Below are positions 4,570 through 9,313 of a stretch of DNA of 10,915 nt, piece by piece. Origin of the DNA: Thermoanaerobacterales bacterium (GTDB taxonomy: Bacteria; Bacillota; Thermosediminibacteria; Thermosediminibacterales; Tepidanaerobacteraceae); NCBI GenBank assembly GCA_012841995.1, contig DUTQ01000075.1, forward strand, positions 1-10,915. Direction: 5' to 3'. The notes below the pieces were generated by a model. It ran no database searches, had not been told where the DNA came from, and saw only the letters and a program-made list of their open reading frames with translations. The number at the start of each line of letters is the position of its first letter. Within the stretch, counting starts at the first letter, position 1. A program made the position numbers and the translations under genes.

Positions 4570-5007
4570 TTATTTAGGAAAATGCCATACCAATGACTTA
4601 TTTGCTTTTTCAGATGAGGCTCTTTTTAATTCTGCAATTTCTCGTAACTCAACCACATTAGCTTTTTCTAACAGATCAACTACATTATCTTTCTTAAATT
4701 GTTGTACAGCAACAACACCACTTTCATTGTCTAAATCATAATTTATTTCTTCTGATGAATATTCTTCTGTTGATTTTTTATTTATTTCAGTTTTGATTTC
4801 ACCTTCCTTTTTCTTAACTTCATTTTTTCCCTTGCTTTTTATAACATCTTTTAAATTTTTTCCATCATGTTTCTCTTTTAGTGAATAATTCCCCCTGCTC
4901 CCCTGAAGAAATGCAGTTAATCCCAATATGTTTGCCAAAAGCAAAATATAGATTAAGGACATCATATTTTCATCGATTCTCTTCTCCAAGTTTTTTATAA
5001 TAGACAT
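4570..5007 (-). CDS. Unrecognised membrane-anchored charged protein
   Basis: 145 residues; I do not recognise the family. A short N-terminus is followed by one hydrophobic segment (about 16-34, SLIYILLLANILGLTAFLQ), then a long Lys/Glu-rich, probably disordered stretch (about 37-95), and a C-terminal part with possible coiled-coil character (VVDLLEKANVVELREIAELK). The likely topology is a single-pass anchor with a charged tail. The ATG at 5005-5007 has the strong binding site GAGGGGGAAT, so translation is credible. The hydrophobic segment resembles that of the plus-strand gene at 8558-8923 (9 of 19 positions identical by eye, including N-x-[IL]-G). It lies downstream of ypeB in the same direction but 317 bases away. 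A sporulation role is only a guess from the neighbourhood. Confidence 0.75.
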   Translation of the reverse strand: MSIIKNLEKRIDENMMSLIYILLLANILGLTAFLQGSRGNYSLKEKHDGKNLKDVIKSKGKNEVKKKEGEIKTEINKKSTEEYSSEEINYDLDNESGVVAVQQFKKDNVVDLLEKANVVELREIAELKRASSEKANKSLVWHFPK

Positions 5008-5324
5008 ACTGATTCCCCCTCTATAGAAAGTCTAAATAAAAAATCCAATGTTAACTCCAGTGTAGAAAGCAATGTTATTTTTCTTCATAATATTATATTA
5101 TGCAGCTTTAAGTTTATTCGTTAAGATTAGGTCAAAAAATAACAGGCACACGCCTACTTTAAATTGGCTAATAATAGCAATATTAGCACGATAAATACAA
5201 TAATTGTATCATTGAAAAATCTCTATATTACTAATGGCTAGTGTTACTTCTATAAGCTTTTTAAAACTCCCTTAACAAAGCCTTCATTTATTCATAAATT
5301 GTTCAATGTACTCTGCGTTACGTG
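5008..5324 (-). other. 317-base intergenic stretch after ypeB
   Basis: No credible complete gene. On the minus strand it holds a short hydrophobic reading frame without a start (5154-5222), a 7-bp inverted repeat GCTAATA/TATTAGC (5167-5187), a small ATACAA/TTGTAT inverted repeat near 5194-5208, and AT-rich DNA before the next gene. None of the hairpins has a convincing U-tract, so I call no terminator for ypeB. Confidence 0.5.
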
Positions 5325-6674
5325 TTACATTGTCATTATGCCCTTTTGGGTCTCAACTACTTTGAGTATTTGCTCTTCCTCACCATTTTGTGCATTTATA
5401 TATATATAGAATCGTTCCTCTCCAAGTTTTGCATCAACCTCATAACAAAGCCTTTCTTTTAGCGATGGATCAGGAATAAGAGCAAGGCGAACTTTATTGA
5501 CTCTTAAGTTTTTACTCAATATTTTCATAATATCTTGTTTGCTAAATTTTACTTTATCAAACTTTCTTTCGGTATGAAAAGTATAGTAAGCTACAGTATC
5601 AGCACCTACTACCTGACCATTATCAAGAGCAATTTCAACTTTTATAAAATCAGGGTAGAGTAGTATCTCTTCAGATGTAGGGACAAACGTAAAAGTAACG
5701 GTGTTATCTTCTTTTAAATAGCCGGTAGCCTTCATGTTGTCAAATCCTCGAGAGTTAAGGAAAGTATTTGCCTTATCTTTTGCTTCGTCTACGCTAATTT
5801 TTTGTTCTTCTATCTTTCTTGTATTTAAAAACCATAAGACATGCCCGCCTTGTTTGCTGACATCCGCAACTATATTTGGAGAGTTAGATTTGCCTCTTTT
5901 AAACTCTATACTGTAAGCAGGTATTACACCTTTGACTTTACCTGTTACTTTTATATCGTATTTATTATTGTTCCGACCGATTATGAATTTTTTAGCAATA
6001 TCTTGAGCTTCAGTTTCTGTAATGATCTTGTTTTTCAAACCTTTTGGTCTAATCTCTTCTGTATGATCAGAAAAAGGACCATCATAAGTGATAGTAGGCG
6101 CCTCTTTTTTAAGTTTTTGATCAATGTTAGCAAAATCTTCTGCAATGCCTGATTGGAGATCTTGTGTTTTACCCTTTAGAAATGTCTGATTTTCCCACTT
6201 AATTCGGCCAGATGCAACTTTTTCTTGAATTTTTCGAAGCTGTTTATTTAAAGTTGCAGAATTATCTTTAAATACCTCCATCTTTTTCCACTCGTTAGCA
6301 GTTATCTCATTATTTTTAACCGCTTTCTGAGCTAATGTGTAGGAGAAGTCACCCAGTTGTGCAAAAAATTTTTGACAGTTTGTCATATCCTGCTGCCCCA
6401 ATGGCAACGACGATAGGTTTTCTCTTGCTGCTTCAGCTTGATGCCATATTGTGGTTAAAGTCATGATTCGCTGCTGGTTTGAAGATGTGACCATACACTT
6501 GGAAATCAAAATATTTATGTTATTTACCCGATCGATAAGATTATAAAAGCAACGTTGGTGTGCTGCTTCTAATGCATTTTGTGCAGAATACGCTCTGCTT
6601 GACATTACCCACAAACTGATAATAATGCCACCAATTATAAGCAGGGCAACAATCCAACTATTTCTTTTATTCAA
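5325..6674 (-). CDS. ypeB: Germination protein YpeB
   Basis: Partner of the spore cortex-lytic enzyme SleB: each protects and localises the other in dormant spores so that cortex can be degraded at germination. With the TTG start at 6672-6674 the protein is 449 residues, matching B. subtilis YpeB at about 450. This start is chosen because GGAGGG sits about 7 bases upstream, the anchor NSWIVALLIIGGIIISLWVM follows at once (about 5-24), and a further upstream TTG would add 27 unlikely residues overlapping sleB. An alpha-helical middle region is followed by PepSY-like YpeB repeats in the C-terminal half, for example ITETEAQDIAKKFI and ISVDEAKDKANTFLNSRGF. The gene begins 23 bases after sleB, the standard order, so both are probably made from one forespore transcript. 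Confidence 0.93.
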   Translation of the reverse strand: MNKRNSWIVALLIIGGIIISLWVMSSRAYSAQNALEAAHQRCFYNLIDRVNNINILISKCMVTSSNQQRIMTLTTIWHQAEAARENLSSLPLGQQDMTNCQKFFAQLGDFSYTLAQKAVKNNEITANEWKKMEVFKDNSATLNKQLRKIQEKVASGRIKWENQTFLKGKTQDLQSGIAEDFANIDQKLKKEAPTITYDGPFSDHTEEIRPKGLKNKIITETEAQDIAKKFIIGRNNNKYDIKVTGKVKGVIPAYSIEFKRGKSNSPNIVADVSKQGGHVLWFLNTRKIEEQKISVDEAKDKANTFLNSRGFDNMKATGYLKEDNTVTFTFVPTSEEILLYPDFIKVEIALDNGQVVGADTVAYYTFHTERKFDKVKFSKQDIMKILSKNLRVNKVRLALIPDPSLKERLCYEVDAKLGEERFYIYINAQNGEEEQILKVVETQKGIMTM

Positions 6675-6697
6675 AGATATCCCTCCAATAAAACATA

Positions 6698-7186
6698 TTA
6701 TTTCCCAAAAACATGGTTGCCAAGTTGTGTTATTATTCGACGAGTCCAGATCCACGGGTGTACCTTTTTATATGGATTCCAAAAAAATAAACTCCCATAA
6801 GTCGGATCCCAGCCATTTATAGAATCACGTGCTGCGTTAAAGTTTGCTCTTGATGGATACTGTACCCATAATTGTCCATTGCGGACAGATTCAAAGGCAC
6901 CTGGCTGATAAATTACACCAGCCACCGTTCCAGGGAATTTAGGGCTTTTTACTCTATTAAGTATTACCGCCCCAACTCCTACCTGGCCTATATAAGGTTC
7001 CCCACCTGCTTCACCTGATATGAGTCTTGACAAGAGTAAATAATCAGCACCACGGGCTGAAACAGCGTAACCTATATTTTCCGCCTGTGCCCTATTTTGC
7101 TGTAAATTATATAACATAAACAACATTGAAACTACTAAAAGAGATAGCAAAATCCACTTCCATCTTTTTACTAATAATTTTTTCAA
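6698..7186 (-). CDS. sleB: SleB-type spore cortex-lytic enzyme without PG-binding domain
   Basis: Lytic transglycosylase of the SleB/CwlJ (Hydrolase_2) family, which degrades muramic-lactam cortex peptidoglycan during germination. The 162-residue protein has an N-terminal hydrophobic signal or anchor (about 11-28), a short linker, then the catalytic domain: LISGEAGGEPYIGQVGVGAV with the catalytic glutamate expected at E59, YQPGAFES, and FFWNPYKKVHPWIW near the end. Classical SleB is about 300 residues with a peptidoglycan-binding domain between signal and catalytic domain; that domain is absent here. The size is CwlJ-like, but CwlJ lacks a signal peptide and is not paired with ypeB, so SleB is the better name. 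The start is TTG at 7184-7186 with GAGGGTGAT upstream. Confidence 0.93.
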   Translation of the reverse strand: MKKLLVKRWKWILLSLLVVSMLFMLYNLQQNRAQAENIGYAVSARGADYLLLSRLISGEAGGEPYIGQVGVGAVILNRVKSPKFPGTVAGVIYQPGAFESVRNGQLWVQYPSRANFNAARDSINGWDPTYGSLFFWNPYKKVHPWIWTRRIITQLGNHVFGK

Positions 7187-7311: not shown

Positions 7312-7491
7312 ATGGAAAATACAACAGGCAAAACAAGTAAAACCAATAAAGATTGCCAACCGCCGAGGCAGCGTCATAACCCCTATAATCTTTTTTTAAT
7401 ACTTATACTTTTAATAAACTCTTTTGGCATTTCTAATAATATTAAAAAATTAAAATCAAGAAACAGCAATGAGGAGGTAAAAAAGAAATGA
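7312..7491 (+). CDS. Small single-pass membrane protein, unrecognised
   Basis: 59 residues. A polar, Lys/Thr-rich N-terminus ending QPPRQRHNPYN is followed by the hydrophobic segment NLFLILILLINSFGI (about 26-40) and a charged tail ending EEVKKK. A strong ribosome binding site (AAGGGGGAAAGG) precedes the ATG. Its stop overlaps the next start as ATGA (7488-7491), and its end carries the next gene's GAGGAGG, so the pair is translationally coupled. The stretch LFLILILL also occurs in the two micro-proteins at 8999-9097 and 9202-9282. I do not recognise a named family. Likely a spore-associated membrane protein, by context only. A sigma-K-like promoter lies upstream. Confidence 0.78.
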   Translation: MENTTGKTSKTNKDCQPPRQRHNPYNLFLILILLINSFGISNNIKKLKSRNSNEEVKKK

Positions 7492-7820
7492 GAATATCGT
7501 CGATTTCCGATGAAGATATTCAATTATTAAAAGCTATAAAGCCATTTATGAGCTCGAAAAGTAAAGGCTTACTTGACATATTCATAACCATTATAAACAT
7601 CTTCAAACCCGAAAGCCCTGAACAAACATTAAATATCGAAGCACTAACAGAATTTTTGACATTATTACATGAATCCTTTGAAACACAAAAGCTTGCTACT
7701 TCTAATAAAGATAGCATTGAGGAAATAAAAAAGGAGAATGGAAAAGCGCCATCAGAAAACGTAAAAGATATAGAAAACCTATTAAATACACTGGCAAAAG
7801 AAAAATCAGATAAAGAATAA
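7488..7820 (+). CDS. Unrecognised small helical protein
   Basis: 110 residues with no family I recognise. The N-terminal two thirds look like amphipathic helices (DEDIQLLKAIKPFMSSKSKG, then LLDIFITIINIFK and LTEFLTLLHESFE). The C-terminal third is Lys/Glu/Ser-rich and probably disordered. There is no signal peptide; LLDIFITIINIF (about 28-39) could associate with membrane but is short. The start is ATG at 7488, overlapping the previous stop by 4 bases, with GAGGAGG upstream. It should therefore be made together with the 59-residue membrane protein and may be its cytoplasmic partner. The acidic-basic tail ending KEKSDKE is similar in style to that of the gene at 8558-8923. Function unknown. 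Confidence 0.78.
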   Translation: MRISSISDEDIQLLKAIKPFMSSKSKGLLDIFITIINIFKPESPEQTLNIEALTEFLTLLHESFETQKLATSNKDSIEEIKKENGKAPSENVKDIENLLNTLAKEKSDKE

Positions 7821-7882
7821 CTGACAAACCTTGTATTAAAATTTAAACCAATTACTCAAGGGCTTTGTTTGCATTCTAATAG

Positions 7883-7902
7883 AATGAGTTTATTTACTCA
7901 TT
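7883..7902 (+). other. Inverted repeat upstream of the structured RNA
   Basis: AATGAGT (7883-7889) and ACTCATT (7896-7902) form a perfect 7-bp stem with a 6-base loop; a smaller ATTCT/AGAAT repeat (7873-7885) overlaps it. It lies between the 7488-7820 gene and the RNA. No U-tract follows on either strand, so it is a poor terminator. It could be an operator or the 5' end of the RNA. Confidence 0.35.
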
Positions 7903-7912
7903 AGTTAAAATC

Positions 7913-8160
7913 GATTCCAGAGTTAAAATTGTTTTTAGTGTAGAACCTCCTACTCGGTGAAGATGACGGCATAAGTAAAACCGTTATTATTCTTAAGCCC
8001 GAGCCAAACTTAGCAGGGGCAGTGTGCAGAACTTTCGACATAAGCAGGATGTCGAATTGCCCACAAGTTCTGCTTAAGTGCAAGCCAGTCTTTAGGATAA
8101 CAGGTCTTACTTTTAGAAAAGGTGCCACCACCTTCACCGTAATTACTTTTACACGGAATC
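7913..8160 (+). ncRNA. Compact structured RNA with pseudoknot; raiA motif is first family to test
   Basis: This stretch has no credible gene but dense self-complementarity. Closing helices are GATTCC/GGAATC (7913-7918 with 8155-8160) and GTGTAGAA/TTTTACAC (7938-7945 with 8147-8154). A long-range helix is CGGTGAAG/CTTCACCG (7955-7962 with 8132-8139), directly abutted by the hairpin ATGACGG/CCGTTAT (7963-7969 with 7981-7987). The core is a pseudoknot: GGGCAGT/ATTGCCC (8017-8023 with 8056-8062) crosses GCAGAACTT/AAGTTCTGC (8026-8034 with 8065-8073), with hairpin TCGACAT/ATGTCGA (8035-8055) nested inside. Three G-U pairs (7943/8149, 7965/7985, 8022/8057) would be A-C mismatches on the other strand, so the plus strand is the RNA. 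The size, clostridial host and sporulation context recall the raiA motif RNA, but I cannot confirm its consensus. No clear promoter or U-tract terminator is visible; ends are approximate. Confidence 0.75.
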
Positions 8161-8179
8161 AAAATTAATTTATATATGT

Positions 8180-8208
8180 TCATTTTTGTATCGTACTTTG
8201 CATATACT
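8180..8208 (+). promoter_or_regulatory. Sigma-E-like promoter for ybaB-like gene
   Basis: TCATTTT (8180-8186) and CATATACT (8201-8208) are exactly 14 bases apart. Each differs at one position from the mother-cell sigma-E pattern KMATATT-14-CATACAnT. The predicted start is about 25 bases before the TTG at 8240, and the promoter lies just after the structured RNA, so the gene may be transcribed separately from it. Confidence 0.45.
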
Positions 8209-8239
8209 TAATCTAGTTATAAAGTGGGGGGTGCCTAAT

Positions 8240-8542
8240 TTGTGGGAAAACATAGAAAAAGCTGGAAGGAAATTACAAGAACAGATGGAGGAACTCAAGA
8301 AAAACCTTTGTGAAGCTAGATTTACCGGTAAATCTTTTGACGGTAAAATAATAGCAACAGCAAATGGTCTCGAAGAAATAGTAGAAATAAACTTTAATTG
8401 TGACATAAAATCTGAAAATATAATCGAGCTGGAAAAATCTATCCTAGACGCAGTAAACAATGCTTTAGATAAAGTCAGAAACTCTTTAGAAGAGCAAGCG
8501 CGCAAATTTACCGAAGGCTTTAATTTTAATGATATCGATTGA
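8240..8542 (+). CDS. Orphan YbaB/EbfC-family nucleoid-associated protein
   Basis: 100 residues from a TTG start at 8240-8242, chosen for the upstream GTGGGGGGTG and because upstream ATG and GTG codons would overlap the promoter or the binding site. The pattern fits YbaB/EbfC: an N-terminal helix rich in Gln, Lys and Glu (LQEQMEELKKNL), a beta segment (GKIIATANGLEEIVEINFNC), then ELEKSILDAVNNALDKVRNS and a C-terminal helix. Family members are small dimeric DNA-binding proteins. The housekeeping copy normally sits between dnaX and recR; this one lies with spore-type genes and is followed 15 bases later by an unrecognised gene, so it is probably a specialised paralogue, perhaps acting on mother-cell DNA or on its partner. 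The family call is moderately sure; the role is inference. Confidence 0.78.
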   Translation: MWENIEKAGRKLQEQMEELKKNLCEARFTGKSFDGKIIATANGLEEIVEINFNCDIKSENIIELEKSILDAVNNALDKVRNSLEEQARKFTEGFNFNDID

Positions 8543-8998: not shown

Positions 8999-9097
8999 TT
9001 AGTCATCGGCAAAGAATAGGAGAATTAAAATCAAAAACAGTGCAAATGCCCATCTGCTTCCAAATCCGCCAAATCCGCCACCCATCGTATCAGCCAT
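8999..9097 (-). CDS. YjcZ-like hydrophobic micro-protein (first copy)
   Basis: 32 residues, MADTMGGGFGGFGSRW followed by AFALFLILILLFFADD. A Gly/Phe-rich head and one hydrophobic helix with an acidic end are typical of the YjcZ-type small sporulation proteins. A textbook ribosome binding site (AAAAAAGGAGGG, about 7 bases before ATG) and a near-identical downstream paralogue argue that it is translated. The codon frame is open from the ATG at 9095-9097 to TAA at 8999-9001. A sigma-K-like promoter lies 28 bases upstream. In Bacillus such proteins are made in the mother cell and are found with the coat or outer spore layers; that role is inferred. Confidence 0.85.
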   Translation of the reverse strand: MADTMGGGFGGFGSRWAFALFLILILLFFADD

Positions 9098-9124
9098 ATT
9101 AAACCCTCCTTTTTTGTTGTAATG

Positions 9125-9153
9125 TAATATATTCCGTAAAACCTTATAGTGTT
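9125..9153 (-). promoter_or_regulatory. Sigma-K-like promoter for the first micro-gene
   Basis: On the minus strand AACA (9150-9153) and AATATATTA (9125-9133) are 16 bases apart. This is one mismatch (A for the leading C) from mACm-16/17-CATAnnnTA. The distance to the ribosome binding site is suitable. Confidence 0.3.
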
Positions 9154-9201
9154 ACTTAAGTTTATATTTTTAAAACTTGTATTCTGTTATATTAAGCTTG
9201 C

Positions 9202-9282
9202 TTAATCATCAGCAAAAAACAACAGAATCAATATTAAAAATAAAGCAAATACCATCTGTCTATTAAATCCTGGTCCACCCAT
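9202..9282 (-). CDS. YjcZ-like hydrophobic micro-protein (second copy)
   Basis: 26 residues, MGGPGFNRQM then VFALFLILILLFFADD. The last 15 residues (FALFLILILLFFADD) are identical to the end of the neighbouring micro-protein while the heads differ, so the two are tandem paralogues. Strong binding site AAGGGGGTAAGG upstream of the ATG at 9280-9282; TAA at 9202-9204. It has its own promoter region with overlapping sigma-E-like and sigma-K-like elements. A single-pass spore membrane or coat protein is the likely identity. The gene is far shorter than routine annotation thresholds and is easily missed. Confidence 0.85.
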   Translation of the reverse strand: MGGPGFNRQMVFALFLILILLFFADD

Positions 9283-9313
9283 TTACCTTACCCCCTTTTT
9301 TATATCCCTGATA

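Follow-up and report, generated by a model that had tools for sequence, protein, structure and literature searches.

The feature at positions 7931-8160 of the window (the whole 10,915-nt stretch of DNA analysed here, from a genome designated G000) is identified with high confidence as a copy of a dispersed family of RNA elements related to TwoAYGGAY RNA (RF01731, clan CL00106), the nearest known RNA class to this family. Taken as a whole it is probably best explained as a MITE-like element of the IS1182 type that is non-autonomous and has decayed, the body of which is a TwoAYGGAY-related RNA. The copy is degenerate and about 230 bp long; the extent of 7913-8160 proposed in the earlier note, which had described a structured, pseudoknotted RNA here, was close, with the left end now read as 7931.

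A search at the DNA level of 61 genomes, in which at most the best 12 candidates were scored per genome, gave at least eight matches in G000 and matches in nine of the 61 genomes, mainly of the same family, and a profile search confirmed relatives assigned to Tepidanaerobacter, Tepidanaerobacteraceae, Thermoanaerobacterales or Bacillota (copies of G001, G007 and G011 are referred to here as the Tepidanaerobacter copies). Common to the aligned copies are two stems, the outer of which is long, together with two hairpins and an internal loop of symmetric CGNAG/CGNAG form, and intact relatives combine the long stem and the symmetric GNA/GNA-type loop with two hairpins that present GGA. A pattern search gave 64 stretches, many of them in unrelated phyla. 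Occurrence in viruses was rejected, the sole pattern match on a viral contig (L095) not resembling the element, and two loci from unrelated phyla (L058 and L069) were set aside, since they passed E 0.001 over no more than 63 and 43 nt, as a result of having been preselected by the pattern.

A covariance model (R1) was built from 22 copies of other genomes, with the G000 copies and the most damaged copies left out. R1 matches the window over its full length at 7955-8139 (+ strand; 49.3 bits, E 7.5e-12), and has matches in 25 of 149 genomes, G000 included. The 22-copy alignment contains 66 pairs, 46 of which have changed on both sides, and 95.8% of its cells are paired. None of 500 shuffles reached any of the five covariation measures, and partners slid out of register paired in only 33-41% of cases, part of the excess over the slid versions being expected because the structure was derived from the same alignment. 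Copies at shared sites, defined by flank similarity, gave a further comparison: 12 pairs were found, one of which was dropped for having a single short match, and the remaining 11 had both flanks similar in six and one flank in five, with three of the pairs representing one site in three genomes and four involving G004, G009 or G006. Of the 627 cells in these pairs, 481 were unchanged, 38 had changed on both sides and were still paired, 41 had changed to or from a wobble, 62 had one member unpaired and five had neither member paired. As judged from this covariation, the body of the family is base paired. The structured RNA proposed in the earlier note is supported at the level of the family, by the strong covariation and by the independent R1 match, with the window copy itself damaged.

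The RNA-like core of the window copy is 185 nt long against 205 model positions, and is therefore 20 nt short, with a loss of about 12 nt from the 5' side, where the outer stem is followed by the second, and of about 8 nt from the hairpin region. The outer stem P1 (5' strand 7956-7972, 3' strand 8122-8138, both on the + strand) forms 14 of 17 pairs, the other three being A-C mismatches, and the GNA loop has been lost, the CGNAG/CGNAG internal loop now being, in our reading, a nearly regular helix. Hairpin P5a (8035-8055, +) retains the conserved CAGGATG (8045-8051), and the GGA within it (8047-8049) is the sole survivor of the two GGA sites. This copy, which has lost one GGA hairpin and the internal loop, is probably no longer active and is most likely a fossil.

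On the left, the core is preceded by a terminal inverted repeat, GTTTTTAGTGTAGAACC (7931-7947, +), with three mismatches to the family consensus GATTCYRGTGTARAAA by our own count, and on the right it is followed by ACTTTTACACGGAATC (8145-8160, +), one base under the consensus length and read by us as having a one-base gap. Given the left end at 7931, the hexamer AAAATT flanks the element on both sides (7925-7930 and 8161-8166, +) as a target-site duplication. This duplication rests on our choice of left end, since the automated end rule picked 7913, at an unusual distance, and 7931 was chosen by reading, from the spacing of ends: it lies 24 nt ahead of the model start, and the spacing is 21-29 nt in 33 of 35 copies. 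The stretch at 7913-7928, GATTCCAGAGTTAAAA, is a second terminal-repeat-like sequence that matches the ends better; its distance to the model start is 42 nt, it thus begins 18 nt beyond the end read here as the likely one, and it is perhaps the remnant of a neighbouring insertion. A lone terminal-repeat match, AACTCCAGTGTAGAAA, with two mismatches, lies at 5053-5068 between genes ending at 5007 and 5325, and is possibly a leftover of another copy of the element.

Both neighbouring genes lie outside the element. Upstream is a gene of 110 aa without a Pfam match (7488-7820, +), and downstream an open frame for a YbaB/EbfC-like DNA-binding protein (8186-8542, +), the real start of which may be at about 8241. 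Across the core just one open reading frame reaches 60 aa, a minus-strand frame of 78 aa (7901-8137), and a coding explanation was rejected as disfavoured by the base-pair covariation.

The helices described in the earlier note are present, namely 8017-8023 with 8056-8062 (seven pairs, one of them G-U), 8026-8034 with 8065-8073 (nine Watson-Crick pairs) and the hairpin at 8035-8055, and the first two cross in the window sequence. As a family feature the resulting pseudoknot did not hold up: both stems (5' strands on the + strand) are complete in the window copy only, the first in 0 of 27 other copies and the 9-bp stem likewise in 0 of 27, the best copy having four of nine pairs and 33% of cells being paired. 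The 5' strand of the second stem sits where the 3' arm of hairpin 1 and the 5' arm of hairpin 2 are unrecognisable, with about 8 nt missing. The crossing helices fall in the damaged part of the element, and the pseudoknot is peculiar to the window copy. Nor is the number of helices informative, with 23 of at least 7 bp where 300 shuffles averaged 22.5, which is chance level; at least one perfect 9-bp helix occurred in 30 of 300 shuffles, and the compact crossing arrangement, which was defined only after being seen, in none of 300. The region 7900-8170 folds at -77.8 kcal/mol on the plus strand (z -5.2), better than all 200 dinucleotide shuffles, and slightly better still on the minus strand (-86.0, z -5.5, again beating all 200 shuffles). 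The plus-strand preference claimed in the earlier note is not supported for this copy, and the three A-C mismatches of the outer stem become G-U pairs on the minus strand.

The earlier note suggested that the element could be a raiA-motif RNA (RF03072) or a relative of it acting in sporulation, a reading favoured by its size, the apparent pseudoknot and the spore-related neighbours (YpeB and a cell wall hydrolase, both encoded on the opposite strand). As far as the Rfam model goes, we now regard this as extremely improbable: no Rfam family reaches its gathering score anywhere in the window, raiA is not matched even when E is relaxed to 10, the sole match at that level over 7820-8240 being a truncated U12 far below its gathering score, and it is TwoAYGGAY that matches a relative (L071) instead. 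Group I and group II introns, HEARO and IS605-type RNAs were likewise considered and dropped as having no Rfam match in the window. The likeness to raiA is, we presume, one of size and taxonomic neighbourhood only; the pseudoknot is incomplete in all 27 other copies, and the copies are dispersed. The sporulation setting looks incidental, other copies lying between different genes and in both orientations. The YpeB and cell wall hydrolase genes themselves (5325-7186, minus strand, by Pfam) are presumably a spore germination pair like SleB-YpeB, and two very short frames on the minus strand at about 9005-9285, read by eye and ending in FALFLILILLFFADD, we take to resemble YjcZ-type sporulation peptides.

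Evidence of a relationship to TwoAYGGAY comes from L071, a relative from the same host family, which has a full-length RF01731 match of 44.8 bits against a gathering score of 43, the only RF01731 match at E up to 1 among the 18 loci tested. No RF01731 match was obtained at E up to 1 for the G000 copies L010 and L030 or for the Tepidanaerobacter copies tested, none at E up to 10 in the window region, which also fails the gathering score, and none in G000 in a genome-wide search; RF01731 has two GGA hairpins and the window copy a single remaining GGA loop. Since the window fails RF01731 while one of its relatives passes, we describe it as TwoAYGGAY-related and not as a member itself. In other genomes both models match common elements. 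R1 matched eight of eight RF01731 elements fetched from G133 and G056, three of 13 from G141, six of the 14 RF01731 matches listed for G069, as well as the elements of G108 and G142 and the two in G008; it matched none of the nine fetched from G094, G230, G249 and G053, and in G036, G120 and G146 the two models match different places. RF01731 matches occur in 19 of 149 genomes and are multicopy, with at least 17 in G141, where the best 17 candidates were scored, so that RF01731 copy numbers are lower bounds.

TwoAYGGAY resembles the present family in having a long stem and two terminal hairpins with GGA-type loops and in occurring in Clostridia, and also in having tandem G-A pairs in a stem (PMC4333381). 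The loops of the Tepidanaerobacter copies differ somewhat, being mostly AGGAN as opposed to the AYGGAY of TwoAYGGAY. In the 2010 account, TwoAYGGAY was described from the human gut, gamma-Proteobacteria and Clostridiales as probably an RNA and probably not cis-regulatory, with its function unknown (PMC2864571). Gardner and Eldai subsequently proposed in 2014 that it binds CsrA (PMC4333381), and it is named among the families improved with R-scape in Rfam 15 (PMC11701678). A search of accessible parts of the open-licence literature turned up no description of TwoAYGGAY as mobile or as having terminal repeats or target duplications, and no test of the 2014 CsrA-binding prediction.

It is very likely that the element family has IS1182-type mobility, for which two classes of ends provide the evidence. 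Those of the first class, to which the window belongs, are inverted repeats of the GATTCYRGTGTARAAA type placed outside the outer stem and are frequent in G004, G009, G002, G008, G006, G023 and G069, where both ends were found with at most four mismatches in 6/11, 4/8, 4/5, 2/5, 4/17, 2/4 and 7/12 copies, respectively; none of five G000 copies had both ends within this limit at the expected place. With a limit of five mismatches, 35 of 67 copies had recognisable ends, and of these 35, ten had identical 6-bp flanks (against 1.3% of mismatched flank pairs) and 15 had flanks identical at five or more of six positions (against 7.4%). In G000 the end sequence occurs 43 times with at most three mismatches, against 17 times for the reversed control. 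This genome also contains core-less copies, among them two (L096 and L109) with ATACTT on both sides. Such miniatures (L096:1501-1729, L020:1435-1539 and L109:1449-1516) have little besides the ends and the outer stem, with one of them nested and with copies of 67, 105 and 156 bp.

First-class ends also flank IS1182-like genes, in G094, G009 and G002. Two such elements in G094 (L313:1225-3170 and L322:1226-3170) carry IS1182-family genes with 554-aa frames without a stop between ends with three and one mismatches, and in our reading are flanked by 7-bp repeats (GCTATAT and GTTATAT); their transposases score approximately 160 bits against an NF033551 cut-off of 270, and from their sequence they are candidate active sources for elements with ends like those of the window copy. 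Two further elements with first-class ends were found: L315 (2,002 bp) has an IS1182-family gene with one stop and a 9-bp flank repeat, and L296 (3,353 bp) has one stop in the match and a second, IS701-like gene, and its flanks do not match each other. No transposase match associated with first-class ends reaches the NF033551 cut-off, and the window's ends are linked to IS1182 tentatively, through partners that score below it. IS1182 elements carry a transposase gene and the window copy does not, and in G000 itself no autonomous partner bearing the window's ends was found, the single IS1182-family gene of this genome (L309) having other ends.

Ends of the second class are of the CAGACTGTMGACAAA type and were found in G141, where the same locus-specific hairpin lies on both sides of the element, in many cases preceded by an A-tract and followed by a T-tract. 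Flank repeats exceeded the 95% control in 12 of 13 G141, two of four G133 and three of four G056 copies, and in 10 of 105 copies of the remaining groups with a control, about twice the expected 5%. These ends, and the hairpin duplication, are shared with full-length IS1182-family elements of G004: four of the five complete elements listed there were examined, and all four, each of 1,611 bp, had second-class ends together with an exact duplication of the whole hairpin. IS1272, of the IS1182 family, targets hairpins and terminators (PMC4923244 and PMC5678879). Its reported effect on the stem-loop is deletion or replacement, with no duplication, whereas the second-class elements duplicate it; a stem-loop duplication is drawn as one branch of the model in PMC5678879. 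These elements, autonomous and miniature, provide an example of IS1182-type elements that duplicate whole terminator-like hairpins. In two G249 loci (L293 and L294) the outer stem is greatly lengthened by paired sequence particular to each locus; neither class of ends was seen there by eye. From their sequences, then, the family has both ends and duplications, and we infer that an IS1182-family transposase moves the miniature copies.

These same features would be expected if the family were a purely selfish hairpin transposon, in which the structure simply follows from the palindromic nature of miniature transposons, the RNA does nothing for the host, and compensatory changes arise by quasi-palindrome correction, with one arm copied from the other in replication. 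Transposon ends, target duplications and hairpin copies that have lost their core all fit such an origin, as do effects resembling correction in the window copy, where in our reading an almost regular helix has replaced the internal loop, and where a new perfect 9-bp repeat has arisen. In a few copies, e.g. L010 and L077, the hairpin-1 loop is also inverted (TCC for GGA), suggesting that this hairpin was flipped at the level of the DNA.

Other properties of the family are not those expected of a selfish hairpin, one being the choice of strand. In the 22 copies under the model structure, G-U pairs outnumber A-C mismatches (44 vs 15 cells, or 27 vs 12 by column and type), as they do for the Tepidanaerobacter copies in a larger, model-fitted alignment (87 vs 30). 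When 30 matches on the opposite strand, a few of them from other genomes, were treated in the same way the ratio was reversed (36 vs 60), and the same loci read on the sense strand gave 86 vs 28, so that the strand signal is not an alignment artefact. A G-U excess confined to one strand is not predicted by correction between DNA arms. Counts for the copies of G006 and G000 were 109 vs 75, and for those of G004, G009, G002 and G008 82 vs 74, where the excess is absent. Choosing the structure free of wobble pairs gave 14-8, 4-6, none, 9-6, 6-5 and 15-6, with no group significant, and this test was discarded since a structure picked without G-U pairs makes it uninformative in divergent alignments. 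On these alignments the strand signal is thus strong in one lineage only, Tepidanaerobacter.

The same lineage differs in its ends. In G001, G007 and G011 the ends are at the level of shuffled sequence (median 6-8 mismatches against approximately 6.7), element sites are shared between species with the core kept, and both GGA loops, the letters of which are among the most conserved positions of the family, are retained in 23 of 30 copies (compared with 9/19, 5/10, 9/17, 1/5 and 1/4 in other groups). From this combination of decayed ends, shared sites and kept loops we infer that mobility has been lost in Tepidanaerobacter and the RNA retained, R1 scores having been left out of the argument because R1 was trained on Tepidanaerobacter copies. 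Such retention of core and GGA letters again runs counter to a purely selfish transposon.

With regard to genomic context, for which genes were assigned from ORFs by a simple rule, four of 127 copies overlap a long open frame. A role in cis on the adjoining genes, as an attenuator or as a structure at transcript ends, would be in keeping with the insertion of second-class elements at terminator-like hairpins and with the excess of convergent over divergent sites among classified copies (28 vs 12), but the upstream gene is in the same orientation in 61 and the opposite orientation in 57 classified copies, so that no orientation preference relative to the neighbouring genes is evident, and no terminator-like site was found in the window at 7780-8300; we consider such a role unlikely. 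Among the 114 copies with both neighbours classified, 42 were opposite to both and 32 the same as both, with the 28 and 12 above being same/opposite and opposite/same, respectively. A promoter of its own for the element was also considered and rejected, as there is no conserved one across groups and none above chance in the window. Upstream promoter scores are unremarkable by median against plain shuffles, with the share of copies at p ≤0.1 ranging from 0.10 to 0.46 per group and highest in G141, and in G141 alone a promoter-like site recurs at one position inside the element. The lack of both a conserved promoter and an orientation bias is, for its part, what a selfish transposon would show.

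CsrB, CsrC and RsmX/Y/Z are RNAs known from Gammaproteobacteria for which CsrA binding has been demonstrated. They present GGA in hairpins, generally in pairs (PMC4383904), much as the intact copies described here do, and differ from the present family in that their CsrA binding is demonstrated (PMC4333381 and PMC4383904), the element family being a putative binder, and in that the family is dispersed and mobile. In order to compare distributions, lists of carriers and of genomes with CsrA were compared by eye across 398 genomes required to be at least 95% complete, G000 excepted. CsrA was found in 47 of 49 carriers of RF01731 (E up to 0.001) against 295 of 398 genomes overall (hypergeometric 3.0e-5, a probability that is too small because the genomes are related). 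Carriers above the RF01731 gathering score had CsrA in 30 of 31 cases, at the genus level it was found in 37 of 38 carriers against 202 of 277, and in the smaller genome set in 18 of 19 carriers against 107 of 149. Carriers in which it was not found were G420, G424 and G008, to which G000 and G007 (R1 matches only) can be added, all of them less than 97% complete; G000, which is 84% complete, has no PF02599 or FliW match, FliW is also missing in G008, G420 and G424, and the fliW match of G007 is cut off by the end of a contig. In G011 a TwoAYGGAY-type copy (L216:2360-2545) lies just downstream of a fliW-csrA pair on the opposite strand, which may be due to chance given the approximately 15 matches in that genome.

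This co-occurrence fits the published prediction of CsrA binding, which is putative for this family, and the near-constant presence of CsrA in carriers is a further point against the purely selfish transposon, a reading that we find somewhat doubtful. Titration of CsrA by intact copies has, on the present analysis, slightly less than an even chance of being right. Under the mechanism that we propose, an IS1182-family transposase acting in trans would recognise the terminal inverted repeats and insert the element mostly between genes, duplicating either a short A+T-rich target (window-type ends) or a whole terminator-like hairpin (second class). If transcribed in the sense direction, the body would fold into the long stem, the symmetric GNA/GNA-type internal loop and the two GGA hairpins; this pair of hairpins might bind a CsrA dimer, and the many dispersed copies might jointly titrate CsrA, which in Clostridia would parallel the role of CsrB and RsmZ in Gammaproteobacteria.

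Carriage by IS1182-type miniature transposons would explain the scattered, multicopy distribution of TwoAYGGAY, and the relatives of the window copy show how such RNAs spread through clostridial genomes. We can tentatively envisage that Clostridia carry a distributed, mobile CsrA sponge, formed by TwoAYGGAY on miniature transposons of IS1182 type, with one class homing to terminator-like hairpins, with at least 17 copies in one genome and with the Tepidanaerobacter copies being end-less and kept as host RNAs. If true, Gram-positive bacteria would have an RNA that antagonises CsrA, and domesticated transposons would here be titrating a regulator; the finding of carriage points to the copies worth testing, namely those without transposon ends and with the core intact.
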